From assembly GCA_947475445.1 (NCBI GenBank), contig CANJLC010000001.1, positions 124,001-188,000 of the forward strand: a stretch of 64,000 nt of DNA, in the 5' to 3' direction. Within the stretch, counting starts at the first letter, position 1, and the number at the start of each line of letters is the position of its first letter. The stretch comes from Alphaproteobacteria bacterium (GTDB lineage Bacteria; Pseudomonadota; Alphaproteobacteria; Micropepsales; Micropepsaceae). A model generated the notes under the pieces. That model did not search any database. It had not been told where the DNA came from and saw only the letters and a program-made list of their open reading frames with translations. Positions 39,394 to 49,793 of the stretch are shown here, piece after piece. Made by a program: the position numbers and the translations under genes.

Positions 39394-39468
39394 GCGCCCT
39401 TCGTCTATCGGTTAGGACTCAGGATTTTCATTCCTGCAAGAGGGGTTCGACTCCCCTAGGGCGCACCA
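39394..39468 (+). tRNA. tRNA-Glu (anticodon TTC)
   Basis: 75 nt including CCA. Acceptor GCGCCCT pairs with AGGGCGC; anticodon stem CAGGA/TCCTG with loop TTTTCAT giving TTC; T-arm GGGG-TTCGACT-CCCC. A tyrosine integrase gene follows, so its 3' end is a probable attachment site. Confidence 0.97.
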
Positions 39469-39523
39469 ACAAAATCAAAGACTTAGAAGCAGTTTTTAGA
39501 ACAAAAAAGAACAAAACGGTTCA

Positions 39524-39545
39524 GTTTGGGACACGGTTTGGGACA
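39524..39545 (+). repeat. Tandem direct repeat between tRNA-Glu and the integrase
   Basis: GTTTGGGACA occurs at 39524-39533 and again at 39536-39545, 12-bp period, in an AT-rich stretch between the tRNA and the integrase stop codon. The position suits integrase arm-type sites; this is inference. Confidence 0.45.
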
Positions 39546-39554
39546 TTTGGGGAA

Positions 39555-40616
39555 TCAAACCTCTTTTTTGGGTTCCCGTTTGTTCGCTTTCCACTTATTC
39601 ATCGCCCCTTCACCGAGGCCCTTCTGGCGGGCGTCTCGGGCGTAAAGCCGCAGCATAGAATCGGTCGTATGGCCCGTGATTGCCATGGTTTCGGAATTTG
39701 TCGCGCCACTTTCCACTAGCGTCTTTGTCGTCGTCTTTCGTAGCCCATGCAGGACACAGCCCTGACGCCCGGTTGGCAGTCCCGCCGCCTTGATCGCGTC
39801 GGACATCATCGACCCGAAATGTATCGGGCTAATGGGATGGCCCCGCTCCCCGGTCAAGATGAACTTAAAATGGCAGGGGTTGATCGCCGCGAGGGCCTCG
39901 GCAAGGTCGGGGTGAATCGGAATTGCAAGCGGAACCTCGGTGCTGTCCTCTGTCTTGCTCGGCGTAACGTGGATTTTGTCGCCCACAATCCACCCCCATT
40001 CTAAGGTCGGCAAGTTATTGCGCCGGATGGCCGTATAGAGGGCTAGGGCGTAGCCCGTGCGCTGCGGCGTCCCAAGCGGCCAACGGTCCTCGAACTGGTA
40101 TAGCTGCGCGTCCGTCCACGCCTTGAACTTTTTGGCTTTAAATTTTTTAAGCCGAAGCGCGGGGTTGTCTGGTCTATATTCGTGATCGACCGCCCAAACC
40201 ATAAGGATCGCCACCGTCCGCAACATGGTATTCGCCGCGCCGGGTCTGTCGGCCATTTCCTCGCGCCAGCGCAGGATATGTTTGCGCTGCAACGCCTTCA
40301 CCGGCTTATCGCCATGCAGCGCCGCAAGCCTCTCGACTACGCGGCGCATCTCGCTTTTGGTTATGTCCTTCTGCCGCGTGAAGTCGCTGGATTTCAGATA
40401 GGCGACGCACATCGCGCCGAAAGATTCCGGGTTTGATCTGTCAAGCGAGGTCGCTTGGCTCGCCAAACGCGCGGCCTGATAGGACGCCAAGAATTCCGGC
40501 GAGCCTGGCGCACCTTGCAAGGGGATGCGTTCGCCGCGCCGCTTCGCGCGGAAATAATATCTCAGCTTTCCGTGCCGATCTCGAAATGTTTCGACATTTG
40601 GAAGGTGGATTTTCAT
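39555..40616 (-). CDS. Tyrosine-type site-specific integrase
   Basis: 353-residue phage/island-type recombinase. N-terminal arm/SAM-like domain to about residue 170, then the catalytic domain: R in LYTAIRRNNL, K in TPSKTEDSTEVPL, H-x-x-R in LHGLRKTTTK, His in ITGHTT and the nucleophile in MLRLYARDA. The motifs are complete, so it looks functional. I chose ATG 40616 (KIHLPNVETFRDRHGKLRYY) rather than the longer frame. It points at tRNA-Glu, the usual arrangement for elements inserted into a tRNA 3' end. Codon use and base content are more AT-rich than neighbours. No excisionase or cargo gene is recognisable nearby. Confidence 0.93.
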   Translation of the reverse strand: MKIHLPNVETFRDRHGKLRYYFRAKRRGERIPLQGAPGSPEFLASYQAARLASQATSLDRSNPESFGAMCVAYLKSSDFTRQKDITKSEMRRVVERLAALHGDKPVKALQRKHILRWREEMADRPGAANTMLRTVAILMVWAVDHEYRPDNPALRLKKFKAKKFKAWTDAQLYQFEDRWPLGTPQRTGYALALYTAIRRNNLPTLEWGWIVGDKIHVTPSKTEDSTEVPLAIPIHPDLAEALAAINPCHFKFILTGERGHPISPIHFGSMMSDAIKAAGLPTGRQGCVLHGLRKTTTKTLVESGATNSETMAITGHTTDSMLRLYARDARQKGLGEGAMNKWKANKREPKKEV

Positions 40617-40865
40617 GCCGCCTCGCGCCTTCAATCCCAAGGGTTTTTCCCCCCGCCGTCCCGCAATATGCTCCAATGCGTTTGCAAGGCGCAAACATCA
40701 TAGAGAGCAACCCCGCCAACTTTGACGGCAACAGGCATTCAGGTGCAGGCAAAGCCCGGGACACCTTTTGTCGGTAGTGTTTCCATGAATTTCTGAATTG
40801 CGGAGTTGCGCCAACTGCCAGAACGACAGCGCGGTGAGGCGGGCGCGGCAGGCGAAGACTCCGGC

Positions 40866-41465
40866 CTAGAACCCCAAATCCATATTTTTCTTCAAGACGC
40901 AATTCAGGGCGATGCTGATTCTGTCCTGGTCGGATTCATTGGGCCTGACAAAATGTACCAGCCAGGCTGGAAAGATGAGAAGGCTGCCGGTCCGCGGCGC
41001 GATCTCCATTTCGTCCATGGTGAAGGTATCGTAGCTCGTCACCATCTCTCCCGTAATCGTGAAGGGTTGCATGATGTTGGGCGTCCTGAAAACGATATTG
41101 CCCATGTCCGGTTCGCTCTTCACATAATAGACACAGGAAAACACCGCTCCCGGATGATTATGCGAATAGTTGAAGGCACCTTTCGGATTGATGTTGATCC
41201 AGGCTTCCCAAACCGCCAGGCGCAGGGTATCGCGAAATTTGAAATGGCTATGGAGTTCGGCCAGCGATTTGGAAACTTCGTTCAGCAAATCCTGCAGTTC
41301 CGGCGTCTTCAGGTCAATGTTGGGGCTCTGCCAGCCTTTGTCGTTGGAATAGGTTCTGCCATTGAGGCTCGCTCTTGCGTTCTGGCAAAAACTTTCCAGC
41401 TTTGCGTTATCCAGCTTGAGGGACTCGGTGGCAATAAAATTGGTGAAAACCGGTGAGATGATCAT
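40866..41465 (-). CDS. Putative 2OG-Fe(II) oxygenase-like protein (TIGR02466 type)
   Basis: 199 residues, double-stranded beta-helix fold inferred. His in YSHNHPGAVFSCVYYVK (about residues 103-119), the second His in LIFPAWLVHFVRPNE and the 2OG-binding Arg in SDQDRISIALN match the 2OG-FeII_Oxy_5/TIGR02466 family. An Asp two residues after the first His is not evident, so the metal triad may be atypical. More AT-rich than average. Lies between the integrase and the TonB receptor; it may be cargo of the integrated element. Substrate unknown. Confidence 0.7.
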   Translation of the reverse strand: MIISPVFTNFIATESLKLDNAKLESFCQNARASLNGRTYSNDKGWQSPNIDLKTPELQDLLNEVSKSLAELHSHFKFRDTLRLAVWEAWININPKGAFNYSHNHPGAVFSCVYYVKSEPDMGNIVFRTPNIMQPFTITGEMVTSYDTFTMDEMEIAPRTGSLLIFPAWLVHFVRPNESDQDRISIALNCVLKKNMDLGF

Positions 41466-41548
41466 GTCAGGCCATCCGCGTAGAATGGTTCAGTACCTAG
41501 CCCAGGAATTGCCCAGGCGCAAATTCGCGCACGCGAAACGGTGCCGGT

Positions 41549-41582
41549 CAAAAAAAGGAGCCCGCTGGTTTCAGCGGGCTCC
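41549..41582 (-). terminator. Rho-independent terminator of the TonB receptor gene
   Basis: On the minus strand GGAGCCCGCTG pairs perfectly with CAGCGGGCTCC (plus positions 41557-41567 and 41572-41582) across a 4-base loop, followed by T8. A second C7/G7 inverted repeat at 41600-41623 lies between it and the stop codon. Confidence 0.9.
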
Positions 41583-41635
41583 AAGTTGCTCGAGGAAATC
41601 CCCCCCTTTTTTCAAAGGGGGGGCCTTAATGCCGT

Positions 41636-44533
41636 CTAGTACTTGAAGCGGATACCGGCGCGGATGGCACGGCCGCTGGTGTCGTAAATGTCCGAGCGGG
41701 TCGGCAGGCCGTAATCGTTGCGGCTTGACGTGCCCGTCAGCGAGGGAATTTCCGGCGGCGGGATGTCCATGAAATTGTCGACGCCGCCATAGACCTGGAA
41801 ATGGTCGCCGAAGCTGTACGAACCGCGCAGGTCGATATAGCCGACCCACGGCACATTGTTGTCGTCCACGCTGAGCGGGCCGCCACGGTCATCGCCATAA
41901 CGATTGTTGACATGCGCCGAACCGCGGAAGCGGGACTGGACTGTGAAGCTCCAAGGATCCTCGTCATAGGTCAGGGACAGCTTGCCCTGCAACTTGGGAC
42001 GGCCGTTGCCGCCCGCATCCTGGCTCAAGCTGCCGCCGGTTCTGAGGGTTTCGCCCAGCGGACCGGACTGCTTGGTCACGGCTTCGTCGGTGTAGCTGGC
42101 GGTCAGGTTGCTGTTGACCGTGCCATTCCAGAAGTCGAACGAGTAGTCCGCCTGGAAATCCAGGCCCGACACGGTCTGCGAAGCGCCGTTGATGGGCGAT
42201 GTCGCAACATTGGTGACGAACTTGCCGGTCGGCGACTGGGAATTGGTCCGGCCATCGGTCGCGTACACATACTGGGCGCAATAGACTTGTATTCCCGCGA
42301 CGCAGCCCGCCACGATCTGGGCCGATGACACCGAGGTGATCACGCCCTTGATGTTGATCGAGTACCAGTCGGCCGAAATATTGAGGCCGGGGAACCAGTG
42401 CGGCGACAGCACCACGCCGCCGGTGATGCCAAGCGCCGTTTCCGGGACCAGGTTCGGATTACCGCCCGACAGGCCATTGGCGTTGATCTGGCCGGGAACG
42501 GCAGCCGTGCCGTTAGAGGTTGAGCCCGGGTTGAAAAGATCAGTCAGCGAAGGCGCACGAATGTCGGTGGACCAGGTCAGGCGCAGGCGAACATCGTCAT
42601 TGACCTGGCTGGTGAGGCCCAGCTTCCAGGTCTCGACCATGCCCGAGGTGCGATAATCCACGATACGGCCAGCCGCGCTGAAGTCGAGCGACTGAACCAG
42701 CATGTCTTTCAGGAGAGGCGCATCGATTTCACCGAACCCTTCGGTGGTGTAGTTATAGGCGCGCCAGGTCGGACGGTTGCCGGCCAGCCAGTTGCGCAGG
42801 GTCGATTCCGGGTCGGCACTTTCATTGACGCCTTCCAGGCGATAGTCAAAGCCCGCGGCGACGGCCATCTTGCCGGCTGGCAGGGTGAAGGGCTGGCCCG
42901 TGAAGGAGAAGGAAGCCGTGGTCTGGCTTACCCCCACGGAGGTGAATTCTTCGCCATAGCGGCTCTTGATGTAGTTCATCGCCGCCTGGGACGCGACGCC
43001 ATCACCAAAGGTGTTCAGCGGCTGGCAACCACCTTTCTGGAAGGCATGGTAGTCGGCGGTGGCCGGTGTCAGCAGCGAGCGGCACTGGATCGAGCCCAGC
43101 GGCAGGCCCGAGGTGCCCTGGTTGGCGGTGGTCACGCGCACGGCGTCAATCGCCTGCTGATAGCGCACCAGGTTGGGCATGGTGGTCAAGATCAGTTTGT
43201 TGATCTTGGAAGCCTGGCCGGTGATATTCCAGGTCCAGTCGCCGAACACGGTGCCGTCCAGACGGACAACGGCGCGGTGCAACGAGCGGAACGCGAAATC
43301 CTGCAATTCGCCCAGCACCGGTGCGCCAGGTCCCAGATTGGAATTGGCCTGCGGCGGCAGATTGTTGGTGTTGGTCGTGCCCAGCACGAAGGTGGTGATC
43401 TTCGCCGACGTCATCGCCGTCACGATCGTGGGATCCAGGAAGGCGTTGTCGATCTTCACGGTGTTCTGGGACAGGTAGCTGTAACCGACATTCTGGCCCT
43501 TGAGACGGCCGTAATCCAGTTCCACGCCGATCTTCAGCGCATCAGATACCTCGAAGCTGGTGTCGCTGTAGAAATTCACGGTCCGCTCCGGATCGCTCAT
43601 GATGTTTTCTTGGCCATTATAGTCCGACGTCAGCGCGCTGCCGCCCCAGGACAAAATGCCGGTGACGATGCCGAAATTGAACGGCTCGGGCGTGCCCTGC
43701 GGACCAACAAACTGGATGCCCTTGAGCGGACCCGAGATGATCACGCCGCCTCTGGTGGCAAAGGCCAGACCAACGCGGCGCTTCGTCAGGTACTGCGGCT
43801 GGCCGTTGGTGGCGGTATAGTCTGGATTGAGGATGTAGGAGCTGAAATTGTCCCACTTGGCGTTGGACGGTATCGCCGTCCCGGTCAGGTTGGTGTAGCT
43901 GGCGTCGAACACCTGGTGAAGCCTGCCGCCCAGGAAGCTGGCGCCCCAGGACGCGCTGAGCTTCAGCTTCTGCTTGTCCATCCACTGGTTGGTGCCGACT
44001 TCGAGATTGCCCTTAAGGCCTTCGAAGTTGTTGTCCATGATGATGTTGACGACACCGGCAACGGCGTCCGAACCCCAGGCGGCCGAGGCGCCGCCGGTGA
44101 CAACGTCAATGCGCTTGATAAGGCCGTTCGGGAACAGCGTCAGGTCCGTACCGCCGCCGGCGTCGACCGGGACCACGCGGGTATTGTTGAGCAGGGTCAG
44201 GGTGCGGGTAGCGCCCAAGTCGCGCAGATTGACCTGGTCGGAACCGCTGGTGCTGCCGCTGATGCCCTGCTGGCCGGTGCTGGTATCTGGGGAGTTGGTG
44301 ACGGCGAAGCTGGGCAGCGTGCGGAACATGTCGCCAAGGCTGGCGTGGGCGTCACGCTCCAGGGTTTCGGTGCTGACCGATGTGACAGGCGTCGGCTGAG
44401 TGTAGCCGACCAGATTGATGCGCGAGGCGCTGACCACGACTTGTTCAATGTCAGCATCCTGGGCCCAGACAGGGCTGGAAGCGACGCAGGCGGCCGTACC
44501 CAAAAGGGCAATATTCACGAATCTGAAACGCAT
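41636..44533 (-). CDS. TonB-dependent outer-membrane receptor
   Basis: 965-residue receptor with signal peptide (ALLGTAACVASSPVWA), TonB box-like EQVVVSASR, plug domain (about residues 45-180: TLERDAHASLGDMFRTLPSF, LRDLGATRTLTLLNNTRVV, IKRIDVVTGGASAAWGSDAV then GVVNIIM) and a 22-strand barrel ending in aromatic RFKY. The start ATG 44533 is supported by GGGGAG 7-8 bases upstream. The class with VSASRI and G-x-D-x-T at the plug is common in Caulobacter/sphingomonad-like bacteria and imports plant-derived oligosaccharides, aromatics or siderophores; the substrate is not readable. Ends in a strong terminator. An exported tannase-like operon is transcribed toward it from upstream. Confidence 0.92.
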   Translation of the reverse strand: MRFRFVNIALLGTAACVASSPVWAQDADIEQVVVSASRINLVGYTQPTPVTSVSTETLERDAHASLGDMFRTLPSFAVTNSPDTSTGQQGISGSTSGSDQVNLRDLGATRTLTLLNNTRVVPVDAGGGTDLTLFPNGLIKRIDVVTGGASAAWGSDAVAGVVNIIMDNNFEGLKGNLEVGTNQWMDKQKLKLSASWGASFLGGRLHQVFDASYTNLTGTAIPSNAKWDNFSSYILNPDYTATNGQPQYLTKRRVGLAFATRGGVIISGPLKGIQFVGPQGTPEPFNFGIVTGILSWGGSALTSDYNGQENIMSDPERTVNFYSDTSFEVSDALKIGVELDYGRLKGQNVGYSYLSQNTVKIDNAFLDPTIVTAMTSAKITTFVLGTTNTNNLPPQANSNLGPGAPVLGELQDFAFRSLHRAVVRLDGTVFGDWTWNITGQASKINKLILTTMPNLVRYQQAIDAVRVTTANQGTSGLPLGSIQCRSLLTPATADYHAFQKGGCQPLNTFGDGVASQAAMNYIKSRYGEEFTSVGVSQTTASFSFTGQPFTLPAGKMAVAAGFDYRLEGVNESADPESTLRNWLAGNRPTWRAYNYTTEGFGEIDAPLLKDMLVQSLDFSAAGRIVDYRTSGMVETWKLGLTSQVNDDVRLRLTWSTDIRAPSLTDLFNPGSTSNGTAAVPGQINANGLSGGNPNLVPETALGITGGVVLSPHWFPGLNISADWYSINIKGVITSVSSAQIVAGCVAGIQVYCAQYVYATDGRTNSQSPTGKFVTNVATSPINGASQTVSGLDFQADYSFDFWNGTVNSNLTASYTDEAVTKQSGPLGETLRTGGSLSQDAGGNGRPKLQGKLSLTYDEDPWSFTVQSRFRGSAHVNNRYGDDRGGPLSVDDNNVPWVGYIDLRGSYSFGDHFQVYGGVDNFMDIPPPEIPSLTGTSSRNDYGLPTRSDIYDTSGRAIRAGIRFKY

Positions 44534-44583
44534 AGCTTTACTCCCCGAGCTTTGGGCAGCGCATTTTTGCGCGTTTCGCCCAT
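44515..44583 (-). CDS. Possible 22-codon upstream ORF overlapping the TonB receptor start
   Basis: ATG at 44583 (minus) is preceded by GGAGGG with 3-base spacing and opens a frame (MGETRKNALPKARGVKLCVS...) that ends inside the receptor gene in another frame. The sequence is not like a known leader peptide and the spacing is short, so this may be chance; it is recorded because the Shine-Dalgarno is stronger than that of the receptor itself. Confidence 0.25.
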   Translation of the reverse strand: MGETRKNALPKARGVKLCVSDS

Positions 44584-44965
44584 GTTCCCTCCAGCATTGT
44601 TTACTGAGGAGGGGTAGGGCAAGCAATGGACAAATTTGCTTACTGGGTGTGCAGAAATCCAAATGGCGCCGAAAAGCCTTACCTGGGACGAGCCAGGGCC
44701 TATAGCTGCGTTATTGCAGTGCAGTACAATCGCGCTGCAGCGAAGCCCGCCAATCAATTTGGCAGCCGAAAATAACAGAATCCGCCATTTTGCAGGGAAC
44801 GCAGCCGCACCATTTACAGCCACGACGCGCCAGTTTTGCCGGGCGCCGGGGAGTGCTCTATGTACAACCATTACAAAAAAAAGAGACCGCCGGCGCGCTC
44901 TTGGTGCGAAGGGGACTTAATATCAGCAGCTTGTCGTTCTGATGGAAAGACTCGCTACTATCGGT
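44584..44965. other. Intergenic region between the receptor and the MmgE/tannase operon
   Basis: With the leader overlap, about 430 bp lie between the receptor start and the MmgE stop. I see no credible protein: all frames are short and lack family content. The region is less GC-rich than its surroundings and holds a GCAGTGCAGTACAATCGCGC segment flanked by TGCAG/CTGCA, plus a run of eight A (plus strand about 44874-44881). It most likely carries the promoter and control sites of the receptor gene. Confidence 0.5.
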
Positions 44966-46423
44966 TCACGCCGAGGCTGCGGCCGCGATGGCGCCGGCGT
45001 CCGCGGCCTGCTCCACGTCCCAGCACAATTGCATCAGTTTCTGCGCCTTCGCTTTGGGCAGCACGCCATCGGCCAGGTCTGAGAATTTGGCTTCCAGCGC
45101 CGCGTCGCTGAGCGGCTTTTCCAGGCTGCCGACCGCATTCTCGATATGCTTTGTCAGCACCTTGCCGTTTTTCAGCTTGATGGTGAGATCGCTTTTCTGG
45201 GTGGGCACCGCCGCATCGGTATTGACCGTGATCTTGTGGCGCAGCGCCACCACCGCTGGATCTTTCACGATGGCGTCCTGGAATTGCTTCTCGCCCGCCG
45301 CGCCGTAGATCAGTCCCACCGCCACGCAGTGATAGATGCTGAATTTTCCCTCCAGCCCGATCTGGGGTTCGGTCTTGCCCATCAATGAGAGCACCAGCGG
45401 ATTGGCGTGCAGGGTGACGCTGTCAATCTGGTCCGCCGTCAGCTTGTTCTCGCTGCGCAGCTGGATCGCCGCATCAATGCCGGGATGGCTGACGATGCCG
45501 CAGGCGAACGGCTTGTAGGTGTTGAGCGCCGCTTCATAGCGGCTGCCCAATCCTTCCGTGACTTCCGTCCATTTGACGCTGCGGGACAGGGCTTGGCCCC
45601 AGCCATCCTTGCCTTCCAGGGCGGTGACGTCGGCGGTGTAATTCTGTGCCGCCAGCAAGGCCGCGGTGAGGCCATTCTGCGCTGCCCGTCCGGCATGGAA
45701 GCTCTTGGTCATGGTGCCGAAGTGGATTTTCAGACCCACGGGCTGGGTCGCGGCCAGGCCCAGCGCCCAGGCCATTTGCTGCTCGTTCAGGCCCAGGATT
45801 TTTCCTGCTGCCGCCGCGCCGCCAAAGACGCCGCAGCTGCCGGTGATGTGCCAGCCCATGTCGTAATGGCTGGGATAGACCGCATTGCCGATGCGGCATT
45901 CCGTTTCCACGCCCAGCACAAGGGCGTGCAGGAATTCGCGCCCGCTGACGGGCCGGTGCTGCGACAAGGCCAGGATGGCCGATGCCACGGGGCCTGCGGG
46001 ATGGATGATGGTCTTCAGATGCGTGTCGTCATAATCAAAGACGTGGGAGGAAATGCCGTTGACCAGGGCGGCGTTGAGAATGTCCAGCTTCTCAGCGCGC
46101 CCCATCAGGTTGGCTTCGGGCTTGCCGGAAAAGGGCGACATCGCCGCAACCGCATTGTCCACGGTTTCATGATGCGAGCCGCCCACCGCCACGCCCATCC
46201 AGTTCAGGAATGTGCGGGTGCCCTCCTTGCGGACATTGGCGGGCAAATCCTCGAACCGCGCCCCGGTGATATAGCGCGCCAATATCTGCGTCACTTTTGG
46301 CGGGGGCGTAGCCGGCGCCGGCGGCAATGCTGCCGCAGGCGCAGCTGTCTGCGCCTGCGCAGTGGAAAGCAGCCCCGCGCCAATCGCGGCGGCCCCCATC
46401 AGGGAACGGCGGTCAATTGTCAT
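44966..46423 (-). CDS. Tat-exported MmgE/PrpD family protein
   Basis: 485 residues. N-terminal twin-arginine signal: DRRSLMGAAAIGAGLLSTAQAQ, then a Pro/Ala spacer and the MmgE/PrpD fold from about residue 40. Family blocks: FLNWMGVAVGGSHH, LVNGISSHVFDYDDTHLKTI, IHPAGPVASAILAL, YPSHYDMGWHITGSCGVFGG and MTKSFHAGRAAQNGL. Relatives are 2-methylcitrate dehydratase or cis-aconitate decarboxylase, usually cytosolic; export here implies a different, periplasmic substrate. Start overlaps the tannase-like gene stop by 4 bp (ATGA), so it is translated from the same mRNA. Confidence 0.85.
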   Translation of the reverse strand: MTIDRRSLMGAAAIGAGLLSTAQAQTAAPAAALPPAPATPPPKVTQILARYITGARFEDLPANVRKEGTRTFLNWMGVAVGGSHHETVDNAVAAMSPFSGKPEANLMGRAEKLDILNAALVNGISSHVFDYDDTHLKTIIHPAGPVASAILALSQHRPVSGREFLHALVLGVETECRIGNAVYPSHYDMGWHITGSCGVFGGAAAAGKILGLNEQQMAWALGLAATQPVGLKIHFGTMTKSFHAGRAAQNGLTAALLAAQNYTADVTALEGKDGWGQALSRSVKWTEVTEGLGSRYEAALNTYKPFACGIVSHPGIDAAIQLRSENKLTADQIDSVTLHANPLVLSLMGKTEPQIGLEGKFSIYHCVAVGLIYGAAGEKQFQDAIVKDPAVVALRHKITVNTDAAVPTQKSDLTIKLKNGKVLTKHIENAVGSLEKPLSDAALEAKFSDLADGVLPKAKAQKLMQLCWDVEQAADAGAIAAAASA

Positions 46424-48216
46424 GATGCGGGTGCCTTGCAGGTAAAGTTCGCGGCGTCGTCAATGTTGCCCTTGCCGTTATAGGTGGCCAGCAGCGGGTA
46501 GGCGCAGATCGGGCGGGTGCGGTCCACCTTGCCCGTGATGGGCATGCTGTTGCCCGGCTCGCGTTCGCCCGGCTTGGACACGACATGGGAGGCGATGATG
46601 CTGTCGGGGGCCTGGTCTTTTTCCACCCAGTTTTCCAGCGCGGTCAGAAGATCCACCGTGCTGGGGGTCTTGTATTGCGCATCCGTGGAAAAACAATGAC
46701 CGACGCCGGGCAGCATGAAGAGGCGCGCGAAATTTTTCGTCGCGTCGATGCCGCCATTCTGGGCCGCCGACCGGTCATAAAAGTCTTTCACGATCAGGCC
46801 GCCCACGGCCCAATCGGCCCAGCCCACGCTGATGATCAGCTTGTTGTGACGGGCATTGAGGGCGCCCAGATTGAGGTTGGGATGGTCCGGATCGATTTGG
46901 GCCGACGCTATTTGCAGCGCAGGCAGGTCGGTGTCGAAATTGAAGCTGTGCAGGTCATAGGTGGGATCGCCGAACACGACATTGCGCAGCGTTCCCTGCG
47001 TCAGCAGGTAATGACGGCTGGCATAGGGGTTGAGTGAGCCCGGCTTTTGCGGCGTGCCGATCACATAACCGCCATTGCCGCCTTGCGCCCACATGCCCGG
47101 CACATTCTCGCCGCCATAGGGCCAGCCGGGATAGATCTGCCCCAGCTTGTTGGACGGGCCAGCATGGATCTTTGCGATCACATCTTCCTGTTCGGCGGTG
47201 AAGCAGGTCGGCTTGTCCTCGCCCGCCTTGCAGGTCACCAGATCAACATGGGGATCGAATTTGCAGGCCATGGGATTGGTGATGTTGCCATCCTTCAATC
47301 CATCCAGCGCATCGCATTTTTCATAGATGGCGCGATCCATCATGGCGACTTTTGTGGGGGGCAGGACGGGGTTCCACTGGTATTCATCCTCCGCCTTGCG
47401 GAACATGGCTTGCTGCGTCCAGGTGGTGGCAACGCCGTTCAGCTTCGTCCAGCTGGCCACGGGACAGGCGGCGATGATGCCGTTGAAATCATCCGCATAA
47501 CGTTCGGCCTCCATCAGGGCGACGCGTCCGCTGCCGGATGAGCCGAAATAATAGGATTTGCCGATCGCTTTCTTGTAATAGGCCTGGATCACCAGCTTGA
47601 TATTGGCCTGGGCCAGGTGGGTGCCGCGATAACCCCAATTGAGCACCCGCTCCGGATTCTTATCGGCCCAGGAGCCGCCGCCATCGGCGGGAACGGGATG
47701 ACCTGTATCCGTGGCCCCCGTGGCATAGCCGCGATGGAGCGCGGCCGCCTTGGCGCCGTTGGAAAGGTCGCCGATGAAGCCGCCGCCGCCGCCCATGAGG
47801 AATTTGCCATTCCAGGCCGCAGCCTCGGGCAAGTCCACCTCAAAGGTGATTTCCTTGTCCACCACGCCGATCACTTTGCAATATGCCCTGGTTTCGCCTT
47901 CGGCTGCGACATTGTCAGCCGAGCGGATGCGCACCCAGGGAAGTTTCAATCCGGTCAGGCTCTGGCAGCTGGAAACGCTTGCCGAGGACGCCAGCATGTC
48001 GTCCATCGCCTGCTTCAGGAACGCGTTGCCGTCCGACGCTGTCTCACCCAGGCTGGGATTGCCATTGAGCGCGCCGTTTTTCTCCACGACCACGGGCCGG
48101 CCGAATACATCGGAAAATTTCGCATCGGGAGAATAGGGCCCCCATTGCGGTGCGGCGCTGGCGGGCAGGGCGGCGGCGCCCAGCAAAATTGCGCCCAATA
48201 CAATGGCCTTGAACAT
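46420..48216 (-). CDS. Secreted tannase/feruloyl-esterase family hydrolase with atypical nucleophile motif
   Basis: 598 residues with Sec signal peptide (AIVLGAILLGAAALPASA). Alpha/beta-hydrolase of the tannase family: FLMGGGGGFIGDLSNG (about residues 139-154), nucleophile region YYFGSSGSGRVALMEAERY (Ser227), FNGIIAACPVASW, GWADWAVGG (acid Asp) and LPGVGHC (His507-Cys508). Family members normally have G-C-S-x-G-G-R, with the Cys bonded to the Cys next to His; here residue 226 is Ser while Cys508 remains. GGAGGT precedes ATG 48216. First gene of the operon with the Tat-exported MmgE/PrpD protein. Likely attacks ester-linked plant phenolics or a related ester (inference). Confidence 0.87.
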   Translation of the reverse strand: MFKAIVLGAILLGAAALPASAAPQWGPYSPDAKFSDVFGRPVVVEKNGALNGNPSLGETASDGNAFLKQAMDDMLASSASVSSCQSLTGLKLPWVRIRSADNVAAEGETRAYCKVIGVVDKEITFEVDLPEAAAWNGKFLMGGGGGFIGDLSNGAKAAALHRGYATGATDTGHPVPADGGGSWADKNPERVLNWGYRGTHLAQANIKLVIQAYYKKAIGKSYYFGSSGSGRVALMEAERYADDFNGIIAACPVASWTKLNGVATTWTQQAMFRKAEDEYQWNPVLPPTKVAMMDRAIYEKCDALDGLKDGNITNPMACKFDPHVDLVTCKAGEDKPTCFTAEQEDVIAKIHAGPSNKLGQIYPGWPYGGENVPGMWAQGGNGGYVIGTPQKPGSLNPYASRHYLLTQGTLRNVVFGDPTYDLHSFNFDTDLPALQIASAQIDPDHPNLNLGALNARHNKLIISVGWADWAVGGLIVKDFYDRSAAQNGGIDATKNFARLFMLPGVGHCFSTDAQYKTPSTVDLLTALENWVEKDQAPDSIIASHVVSKPGEREPGNSMPITGKVDRTRPICAYPLLATYNGKGNIDDAANFTCKAPAS

Positions 48217-48316
48217 GGGACCTCCCCGGTCTTGTTGTCTTTGCGCCGACATTACACACCTTTGGCCAACAAAAAAGCCACCCTTTGCCACACCAGTTCT
48301 GCCGGGTGGCCGGGCG

Positions 48317-48643
48317 CTAGGGCGCCCTGGTATTTTCCGCCAGCCAGTCGAAATAGCCGACAAACCCCGCGGTAAAAGGCGTGGCCAGGATTTGCGGCAC
48401 CTCATAGGGGTGCTGCGCCTTGATGTGGGCGATTACATTTTCGAATTGCGCGGCGCGCGTCTTGATCAGCAGCAGGAATTCCGGCTCGCGCACGATATCA
48501 CCTTTCCAGACATAACGGCTGTCCACGCCGGTGATCTGGACGCAGGCTGCCAGTTTTTCCGCCAGCAGGCTTTGAGCGATGCGCTCGGCATCTTCGCGGT
48601 TGGCGAGCGTTGTGGAAACAACGCCGAATTCGTCTGCGTTCAT
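48317..48643 (-). CDS. cutA: Divalent-cation tolerance protein CutA
   Basis: 108-residue trimeric cytosolic protein. Family blocks: VVSTTLANREDAERIAQSLL, EKLAACVQITGVDSRYVWKG and HPYEVPQILATP (about residues 78-89). I chose ATG 48643 over the longer frame. It lies 10 bp downstream of the alcohol dehydrogenase gene on the same strand and is probably cotranscribed. Despite the name its physiological role is uncertain. Confidence 0.92.
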   Translation of the reverse strand: MNADEFGVVSTTLANREDAERIAQSLLAEKLAACVQITGVDSRYVWKGDIVREPEFLLLIKTRAAQFENVIAHIKAQHPYEVPQILATPFTAGFVGYFDWLAENTRAP

Positions 48644-48653
48644 GCCCTTGTCC

Positions 48654-49706
48654 TCAGCCCAGCGTCGCCATGTCCACGACAAAACGGTATTTGACGTCGC
48701 TTTTCAGCATCCGGTCATAGGCGGTGTTGATGTCCGACATCGCGATCATCTCGATGTCGGAGACGATGCCATTCTTGCCGCAAAAATCCAGCATCTCCTG
48801 GGTCTCCGCAATGCCGCCGATCAGCGAGCCGGCCAGGGTGCGGCGCTTGAAGATCAGGTTGAAGGCGCCGGGCGGCGGATGCGGCGTCGGCGGCGCCCCC
48901 ACCAGCACCTGCGCCCCGTCACGCTTGAGCAAGACCAGGAACTGGTCCAGGTCATGCGGCGCGGCCACCGTGTTTATGATGAGATCGAAGCTGCCCTGGT
49001 GGGCTTTCATCTCATCGGCGTTTTTCGAAATCACGACTTCGTCGGCGCCCAGCTTTTTTGCGTCGGCGATCTTGTCAGGCGACGTGGTGAAGGCCACGAC
49101 ATGCGCGCCCAGCGCATGCGCCAGCTTCAGGCCCATATGCCCAAGCCCGCCAATGCCCACAATGCCGACTTTCTTGCCGGGGCCCGCTTTCCAGTGGCGC
49201 AGCGGTGACCAGGTTGTAATGCCGGCGCACAACAGCGGTGCGGCGGCGGCCAGGTCTTTTTCCGCGTGGCTGATGGCCAGGACAAATCCCTGGTCCACGG
49301 TAATGGCGGCGCTGTAGCCGCCATAGGTATTAAAGCCGCCGCCCACCGGCCCGTTATAGGTGGCGGTAAAGCCGACAGGGCCGTCGCAATATTGCTCAAG
49401 CCCTTCCTTGCAGGCGGAGCAGCTGCGGCAGCTGTCCACCATGCAGCCGACGCCGACAATCTGTCCCGGCTTGAATTTCTTCACCTGGCTGCCCACCGCC
49501 GTGACGCGCCCGACAATCTCATGACCTGGCACGCAGGGATATTGCACGCCATGCCATTCGCCGCGCGCCGTGTGCAGGTCGGAATGGCACACGCCGCAAT
49601 AAAGGATCGTCAGGGCAACATCCGCCGGGCCTGGTTCGCGCCGGTCAATTGCGTGCGGTGCCAGCGGCGTGGTGGCCGACTGGGCGGCATAGGCTTTGGT
49701 CTGCAT
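48654..49706 (-). CDS. Zinc-dependent NAD(P)H alcohol/aldehyde dehydrogenase (CAD/YahK-like)
   Basis: 350-residue MDR-family enzyme. Catalytic zinc ligands: CGVCHSDLH and GHEIVGRV; structural zinc: the four-Cys loop DSCRSCSACKEGLEQYC (about residues 93-108). Rossmann loop VGIVGIGGLGHMGLKLAHALG (about 175-195). The set matches cinnamyl-alcohol-dehydrogenase-like broad-specificity aldehyde reductases. ATG 49706 is chosen. Followed by cutA. Confidence 0.9.
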   Translation of the reverse strand: MQTKAYAAQSATTPLAPHAIDRREPGPADVALTILYCGVCHSDLHTARGEWHGVQYPCVPGHEIVGRVTAVGSQVKKFKPGQIVGVGCMVDSCRSCSACKEGLEQYCDGPVGFTATYNGPVGGGFNTYGGYSAAITVDQGFVLAISHAEKDLAAAAPLLCAGITTWSPLRHWKAGPGKKVGIVGIGGLGHMGLKLAHALGAHVVAFTTSPDKIADAKKLGADEVVISKNADEMKAHQGSFDLIINTVAAPHDLDQFLVLLKRDGAQVLVGAPPTPHPPPGAFNLIFKRRTLAGSLIGGIAETQEMLDFCGKNGIVSDIEMIAMSDINTAYDRMLKSDVKYRFVVDMATLG

Positions 49707-49793
49707 GGGAACTCCTGATGTGCGCAAACTGGACTTGACGCTGGGGTGTTGCGCACCTAGGACCCCCGGCCCGCATCATAAAGGATTCTTCCC

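Follow-up and report, generated by a model that had tools for sequence, protein, structure and literature searches.

Can a protein of the MmgE/PrpD family act in the periplasm, and with which partners would it work there? The question is raised by a 64,000-nucleotide stretch from an alphaproteobacterium of the family Micropepsaceae (contig CANJLC010000001.1, positions 124,001 to 188,000 of the forward strand; hereafter the window), where the gene of a tannase-like hydrolase overlaps that of an MmgE/PrpD protein (here PrpD) carrying a twin-arginine (Tat) type signal. A first-pass annotation of this DNA had joined both to an adjacent TonB-dependent receptor in a three-part periplasmic route. Our analysis partly supports that account: the feature singled out by the annotation, a PrpD predicted to be exported, is indeed the unusual one, and its story reduces to a clade with the export signal, a local pairing with an unusual hydrolase and, probably as a bystander, the receptor. 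We propose, as a reading with an even chance of being right, that the pair would form a two-gene periplasmic unit composed of a cofactor-free isomerase (or hydratase) of C4 dicarboxylates and an ester hydrolase. Among the openly licensed papers listed by our searches, none was seen to describe MmgE/PrpD proteins as an exported clade or to report a PrpD-tannase pairing. In the part of PMC10924467 available to us, the one MmgE/PrpD gene mentioned is a flanking gene on a map, and a term search found neither MmgE nor PrpD in PMC3305326, PMC12911857 and PMC2275737.

The twin-arginine signal of PrpD

The two genes and their signals are laid out as follows.

46420..48216, minus strand: tannase/feruloyl-esterase-family serine hydrolase (PF07519), 598 amino acids, by Pfam domain score, Sec signal and triad
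48151..48216, minus strand: hydrolase residues 1-22, read as a Sec-type signal peptide
46420..46423, minus strand: ATGA overlap (4 bp) of hydrolase stop and PrpD start, from the sequence
44966..46423, minus strand: MmgE/PrpD family protein, 485 amino acids, by Pfam, residues and structure model
46340..46423, minus strand: twin-arginine-type signal of PrpD, residues 1-28, DRRSLMG...AQAQ, by motif

The overlapping operon of a Sec-exported tannase-family hydrolase and a PrpD, as the first-pass annotation had described it, was thus borne out. The hydrolase scored 324.8 bits against PF07519 (Pfam cut-off 29.8) and begins, by reading, with the Sec-type signal MFKAIVLGAILLGAAALPASA-APQ. PrpD reached 254.1 and 139 bits in the domains PF03972 and PF19305 (cut-off 32.1), and its N-terminus, MTIDRRSLMGAAAIGAGLLSTAQAQ, reads as Tat-type. 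A TatC gene was found in the genome that holds the window (G000; 2.17 Mb, 29 contigs, 98% complete).

A scan of relatives, with one genome per species, gave at least 566 relatives in the stretches examined, of which the 80 best were kept for counts. These 80 loci share 58-88% identity with the window PrpD and belong to Alpha-, Beta- and Gammaproteobacteria and Acidobacteria; three of them (L072, L073, L074) were taken as identical to contigs of the genomes G071, G079 and G054. Tat signals were called by a motif criterion (twin-arginine motif plus hydrophobic stretch) applied uniformly, and not by a trained signal predictor. By this criterion 79 of the 80 loci show a twin-arginine signal where the domain begins, the exception being L087, with none in the open frame, and all 19 second PrpD genes present in these loci carry one as well. 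The twin-arginine signal that the annotation had noticed is therefore confirmed by motif well beyond the window. The orthologues in G071 (90% identity), G079 (76%) and G054 (71%) each have a Tat-type N-terminus.

The distribution of the signal was then compared with a quick tree whose 84 rows comprised the window protein, other sequences and 41 of the 80 loci, 8 rows having been dropped; its support comes from a single measure, the Shimodaira-Hasegawa-like approximate likelihood ratio test (SH-aLRT). The 43 rows around the window PrpD, all with the Tat signal, formed a single branch (SH-aLRT 91) beside signal-less rows. Two more Tat groups stand elsewhere in the tree, and the Tat label required 3 changes, versus 24.1 in shuffles. 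The 29 rows without a Tat match include the nearest relatives outside the 43-row branch. The tree program warned of long branches away from the Tat branch.

It could be argued that PrpD stays in the cytosol, its N-terminal stretch not functioning as a signal: the known members of the family are not described as exported in the portions of the literature available to us, and no experiment on this clade turned up there. This seems very improbable, since the signal-like stretch is found in 79 of the 80 best loci and is missing from the sister rows. Also, among the 710 plasmid records with a match, five were fetched, and the four that encode signal-less relatives have annotated starts only 4-23 residues before the matched domain, which leaves no room for a signal. 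The clade of predicted exported PrpD proteins is widespread and conserved; its Tat signal is the firmest element of the finding, export itself being predicted.

Predicted active sites of PrpD and of the hydrolase

Residues shared by MmgE/PrpD members have been listed as H85, D88, H99, H150, K198 and K266 in the numbering of iminodisuccinate (IDS) epimerase (PMC12290011), and their counterparts in the window PrpD are H127, D130, H141, H192, K240 and K304, the last of which aligns at or beside K266. IDS epimerase (Y145) and methylsuccinate isomerase have an additional catalytic Tyr (PMC12290011), and in the epimerase His99 and Tyr145 have been suggested to act as the two bases (PMC7347537). With Y187 at this position, the predicted active site of the window protein consists of H127, D130, H141, Y187, H192, K240 and K304. 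These six family residues and the isomerase Tyr are conserved in 79-80 of 80 homologues (Y187 in 79). The characterised members of the family act on substrates with a common 1,4-dicarboxylate backbone (PMC12290011).

IDS epimerase of Agrobacterium (PDB 2hp0/2hp3) is the best solved sequence match of PrpD (profile search, E 1e-63). The structure model of PrpD, with a predicted local distance difference test score (pLDDT) of 85, superposes on 2hp0 with a root-mean-square deviation of 2.2 A. The two proteins have in common their fold and the aligned catalytic His, Tyr, Lys and Asp, at 26% identity in the structural alignment; an exported form of the epimerase is not mentioned in the parts of its description available to us. 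The (S)-(R)-methylsuccinate isomerase of the PA0881 type (PMC9875883, PMC12290011) is another MmgE/PrpD protein with a proposed two-base mechanism that acts on a free C4 dicarboxylate, and its residues are those of the window protein. Unlike the window gene, the methylsuccinate isomerase genes sit with CoA-transferase and lyase genes, and the terms "signal peptide" and "periplasm" are absent from the main text of PMC12290011. The 2-methylcitrate dehydratases PrpD/MmgE have the domain family in common with the window protein, with a sequence match far weaker than that of IDS epimerase; PrpD misses the three NCBIfam equivalogs of 2-methylcitrate dehydratase widely (43.3, 42.1 and 36.3 bits versus 575, 950 and 458). 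We therefore favour, from residues and alignments, a predicted enzyme that isomerises or epimerises a C4 dicarboxylate.

A different substrate can be imagined: an acid from ring cleavage, for example 4-oxalomesaconate, which PrpD would hydrate or isomerise as part of a branch of aromatic catabolism that is exported. In a sister genus, signal-less PrpD relatives (51-56% identity) lie near LigB-type dioxygenase genes (L067, L068 and L071; tested by Pfam in L068, the others recognised by likeness of their starts). In two loci the gene next to a Tat-PrpD encodes an amidohydrolase with a Tat-like start, the two being members of one cluster (L083:8491-9459 and L145:11360-12421). That of L083 is closest to the 2-pyrone-4,6-dicarboxylate hydrolase LigI (E 6e-70) and starts MHRRDVLAAMASLG, which the Tat expression does not flag, and that of L145 matches the expression. 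Nevertheless, this amidohydrolase occurs in only 2 of the 80 best loci, its LigI-like family includes other lactonases, the window pair lacks a dioxygenase, and the residues of PrpD are those of the two-base isomerases. A ring-cleavage acid thus appears quite improbable as the substrate, and an isomerase of C4 dicarboxylates is retained as the preferred reading.

For the hydrolase, the nearest solved relatives are MHETase and the fungal feruloyl esterases, with which it has in common the family PF07519 and a Ser-Asp-His triad, complete here as S227-D468-H507. A disulfide that holds the catalytic Ser and His is typical of the tannase family (more than 80%), although not universal (PMC6461665). 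Residues were compared in an alignment of 34 rows, in which the duplicates of the window and of G071 were counted once each. The residue before the nucleophile is Cys in 31 of the 34 rows; the exceptions are Ser226 in the window, Met in G071 and a third protein, L058, which is also without the second Cys. C224 of the C224-C529 disulfide of MHETase is thus replaced by Ser in the window hydrolase and by Met in that of G071, and the partner, Cys508, is retained in the window protein. A structure model of the hydrolase built from 3 sequences had a pLDDT of 32.5 and was set aside as useless.

Retention of the pair and the place of the receptor

The family was surveyed in 96 genomes, G000 included, with coordinates compared by eye. 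Some PrpD match was found in 27 of them and both PrpD and PF07519 in 9, most of which, apart from the two genomes where the genes are adjacent (G000 and G071), are drafts of many contigs. The G071 contig carries, one after another, M28 peptidase, hydrolase (71% identity), PrpD (90%), CMD-domain protein with a signal-like start, a gene of no recognised family, M28, TonB receptor, M28, a dicarboxylate symporter split in two, and a gene start read as pckA. The two genes are separated by a 2 bp gap in place of the 4 bp overlap of G000, and the outer flanks differ on both sides. The flanking genes of G071 are found in G000 on other contigs without the pair: contig C14 holds an M28-receptor-M28 stretch (82, 76 and 78% identity) and contig C9 the symporter with pckA. 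It is thus the pair that stays together, and the adjacent receptor differs. The G071 copy of the window site, with alcohol dehydrogenase and CutA, has a distant tannase-family paralogue (35%) located 1.7 kb past CutA with genes between, and the sole PrpD match of G071 is on contig C112.

These observations bear on a simpler view, in which hydrolase and PrpD have no pathway in common and their joint operon only reflects the history of two close relatives. The pair was not seen in 7 of the 9 genomes with both families (again, most are drafts), and the orthologues of G079 and G054 have different neighbours: an FAA-hydrolase-family gene and, by eye, an aldehyde-dehydrogenase-like gene in the former, BKACE and 3-hydroxyacyl-CoA dehydrogenase genes in the latter. 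Within 16-20 kb around PrpD, neither of these genomes, which hold 2 of the 3 closest orthologues, gave a tannase or a receptor match. However, the pair is intact between G000 and G071 while both outer flanks differ, and a genome-wide search of G000 found a single PrpD and a single PF07519 gene, which makes their adjacency by chance in a 2.17-Mb genome unlikely. We regard chance neighbourhood as a possible but doubtful explanation.

The receptor and the genes around the pair are the following.

41636..44533, minus strand: TonB-dependent receptor, 965 amino acids, by Pfam Plug and barrel
41557..41582, minus strand: rho-independent terminator 3' of the receptor, strong hairpin, z -5.31
48317..48643, minus strand: CutA, directly upstream of the hydrolase-PrpD pair, by domain match
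48654..49727, minus strand: zinc alcohol dehydrogenase, behind CutA, by Pfam
40866..41465, minus strand: TIGR02466 2-oxoglutarate-Fe(II) oxygenase-like protein, downstream of the receptor, by domain match
39555..40694, minus strand: tyrosine recombinase (phage integrase family) adjoining tRNA-Glu, by Pfam
39394..39468, plus strand: tRNA-Glu (ttc), by tRNA call

A 965-residue TonB receptor on the strand of the pair had been announced by the annotation and is indeed present, with 58.4 bits for the Plug and 105 bits for the barrel (Pfam cut-offs 23.9 and 27). Its role as third member, importing a large ester that the hydrolase cleaves and whose acid the exported PrpD converts, fared less well. 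The three window genes are adjacent on one strand, and in G071 too a TonB receptor, encoded on the strand of the pair, stands about 4 kb past PrpD. In the window, however, 432 bp separate the receptor from PrpD, which leaves it outside the overlapping pair. No orthology links the two receptors (33-35% identity): that of G071 has its orthologue on C14 of G000, inside the M28-receptor-M28 stretch and without the pair, and the closest G071 homologue of the window receptor (42%) is on contig C4. In G000, 6 receptors match at E<=1e-60, that of the window included.

The neighbourhoods of the 80 best PrpD loci were also searched by tblastn (3.6-21.5 kb per locus, at least 15 kb in 64 of them). Only one, L072, the G071 contig, gave a TonB receptor match, and the other 79 had none; a tannase-family match was found in two, L072 and L101 (32%, divergently placed). 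Such counts speak against a general three-part pathway. The co-occurrence expected by the annotation holds for hydrolase and PrpD in two of the nine family genomes with both, and fails for the receptor and across the wider set. Of its route, predicted PrpD export and the pair kept in G071 among other flanks still stand. Taken together, import through the adjacent receptor is improbable, and the window receptor is probably a bystander in a separate unit. Near the G071 pair, a TAG interrupts the receptor gene (L062:3416-6451) and the symporter is broken into two reading frames (328-1613), through either decay or an assembly error.

The proposed unit, its transport context and the surrounding site

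The proposed scheme is a two-gene one. The Sec-exported tannase-family serine hydrolase would split an ester, and PrpD would fold in the cytosol and then be exported by Tat. In the periplasm, without cofactor, it would act on a 1,4-dicarboxylate, His141 and Tyr187 serving as a base pair that shifts a proton at C2 (epimerising, isomerising or possibly hydrating the acid). The product would be the form taken up by an inner-membrane carrier of di- or tricarboxylates. The hydrolase may release the substrate of PrpD, both genes being presumably co-transcribed in the window. Cleavage of an aromatic ester followed by modification of the acid, the predicted roles given by the annotation, is plausible.

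Hints on transport come from other loci. In 13 of the 80 best loci PrpD has, at most 2 genes away, a member of the SDF symporter cluster (Pfam-tested in L112). In 12 of these 13 the symporter precedes PrpD and a second Tat-PrpD follows; a PdxA-type gene stands between in 11 and a TctC-type binding-protein gene comes after in 8 (types Pfam-tested in L112). Of the four fetched plasmids with a signal-less PrpD, three carry genes of a tripartite tricarboxylate transporter no more than 6 kb away and three an isocitrate/isopropylmalate-type dehydrogenase; the fifth plasmid, whose PrpD has a signal, has neither. Symporter and plasmid neighbours agree with di- or tricarboxylate substrates. The symporter of G071 was considered as a member of the module and set aside, as G000 has it with its following gene elsewhere.

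Several points weigh against the proposed unit. The Tat motif is not stringent, a similar expression flagging 121 of 1137 neighbouring genes too (19 of them the second PrpDs), yet the contrast between PrpD and its neighbours is large. A Foldseek search ranks cis-aconitate decarboxylase, which is no isomerase, first by E-value, and no reaction is known for a Bacillus subtilis homologue that shares these residues with PrpD (PMC12290011, PMC7347537, as far as available to us), so that a reaction other than isomerisation is possible. The replacement of the Cys before the nucleophile suggests that the chemistry of the hydrolase may differ from that of tannases. Tblastn found no tannase-family match in 78 of the 80 searched loci, which indicates that PrpD works without a hydrolase partner elsewhere, and the neighbours of the Tat-PrpD clade are very mixed. 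The evidence from the symporter comes from one genus, all 13 loci being from Bradyrhizobium; the PrpD loci of Methylobacterium, Pseudomonas and Burkholderiales have other neighbours, and the order around the G071 symporter is the same as in G000, where it stands apart from the pair.

A broader hypothesis can be put forward tentatively, although we consider it less likely than not. Many Proteobacteria and Acidobacteria might convert organic acids in the periplasm by Tat-exported, cofactor-free forms of otherwise cytosolic enzymes, namely PrpD isomerases and, in some genomes alongside them, FAH-type, LigI-like and enolase-superfamily enzymes, encoded beside di- or tricarboxylate importers, thereby reshaping diastereomers or lactone and ester products before uptake; the window pair would be a local version in which an unusual hydrolase supplies the acid. 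If so, a large enzyme family so far studied as cytosolic would have a widespread exported branch, which bears on the uptake of plant and soil organic acids by bacteria and on where to look for family members without known substrate. Also, a cofactor-free enzyme offers no cofactor-insertion reason for Tat, which poses the question why this clade uses it.

Other enzymes with Tat signals were seen near these genes. An FAA-hydrolase-family gene with a Tat signal lies within the Tat-PrpD gene run of 7 Bradyrhizobium loci (L107:15452-16297, Pfam-tested; L114:12916-13749; five more). On contig C9 of G000, two tandem Tat-signal proteins of the enolase superfamily (mandelate racemase type; L179:815-3641) are encoded directly upstream of the only SDF symporter of the genome, and a Tat-signal glyoxalase-family protein is found at L179:7389-8375. 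These C9 proteins, whose export is predicted, are a further sign of a lineage that exports normally cytosolic enzyme types.

As regards the site itself, CutA lies 100 bp upstream of the hydrolase gene, with the zinc alcohol dehydrogenase behind it, all on the same strand, so that the transcription unit may begin there. No promoter match was found in 40700-48800, against 2.4 expected by chance. Between PrpD and the receptor, a U-run after a GC stretch near 44880 was rejected as a terminator, its fold being that of shuffles (z 0.27). The region delimited by the annotation, from 41549, takes in the terminator hairpin 3' of the receptor.

The tRNA-Glu and the recombinase (39394-40694) hinted at an integrative island. 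This was not retained, for want of a second tRNA 3' end or a matching long repeat; the second tRNA-Glu 3' end was found neither in the window (up to 3 mismatches) nor in the genome (18-base core, up to 1 mismatch). The stretch from tRNA-Glu to the alcohol dehydrogenase, which holds the pair in the window, has other content in G070, G075 and G079, and an insertion at the tRNA-Glu/recombinase site, with edges not defined, is possible. The alcohol dehydrogenase adjoins ppa in five of six fetched relatives (L165, L167, L168, L169 and L170 show both, L166 does not). Near it, a Tat-signal protein of the enoyl-CoA hydratase family is encoded in L166 (3638-4555, the one tested by Pfam) and in L165 (7530-8513).

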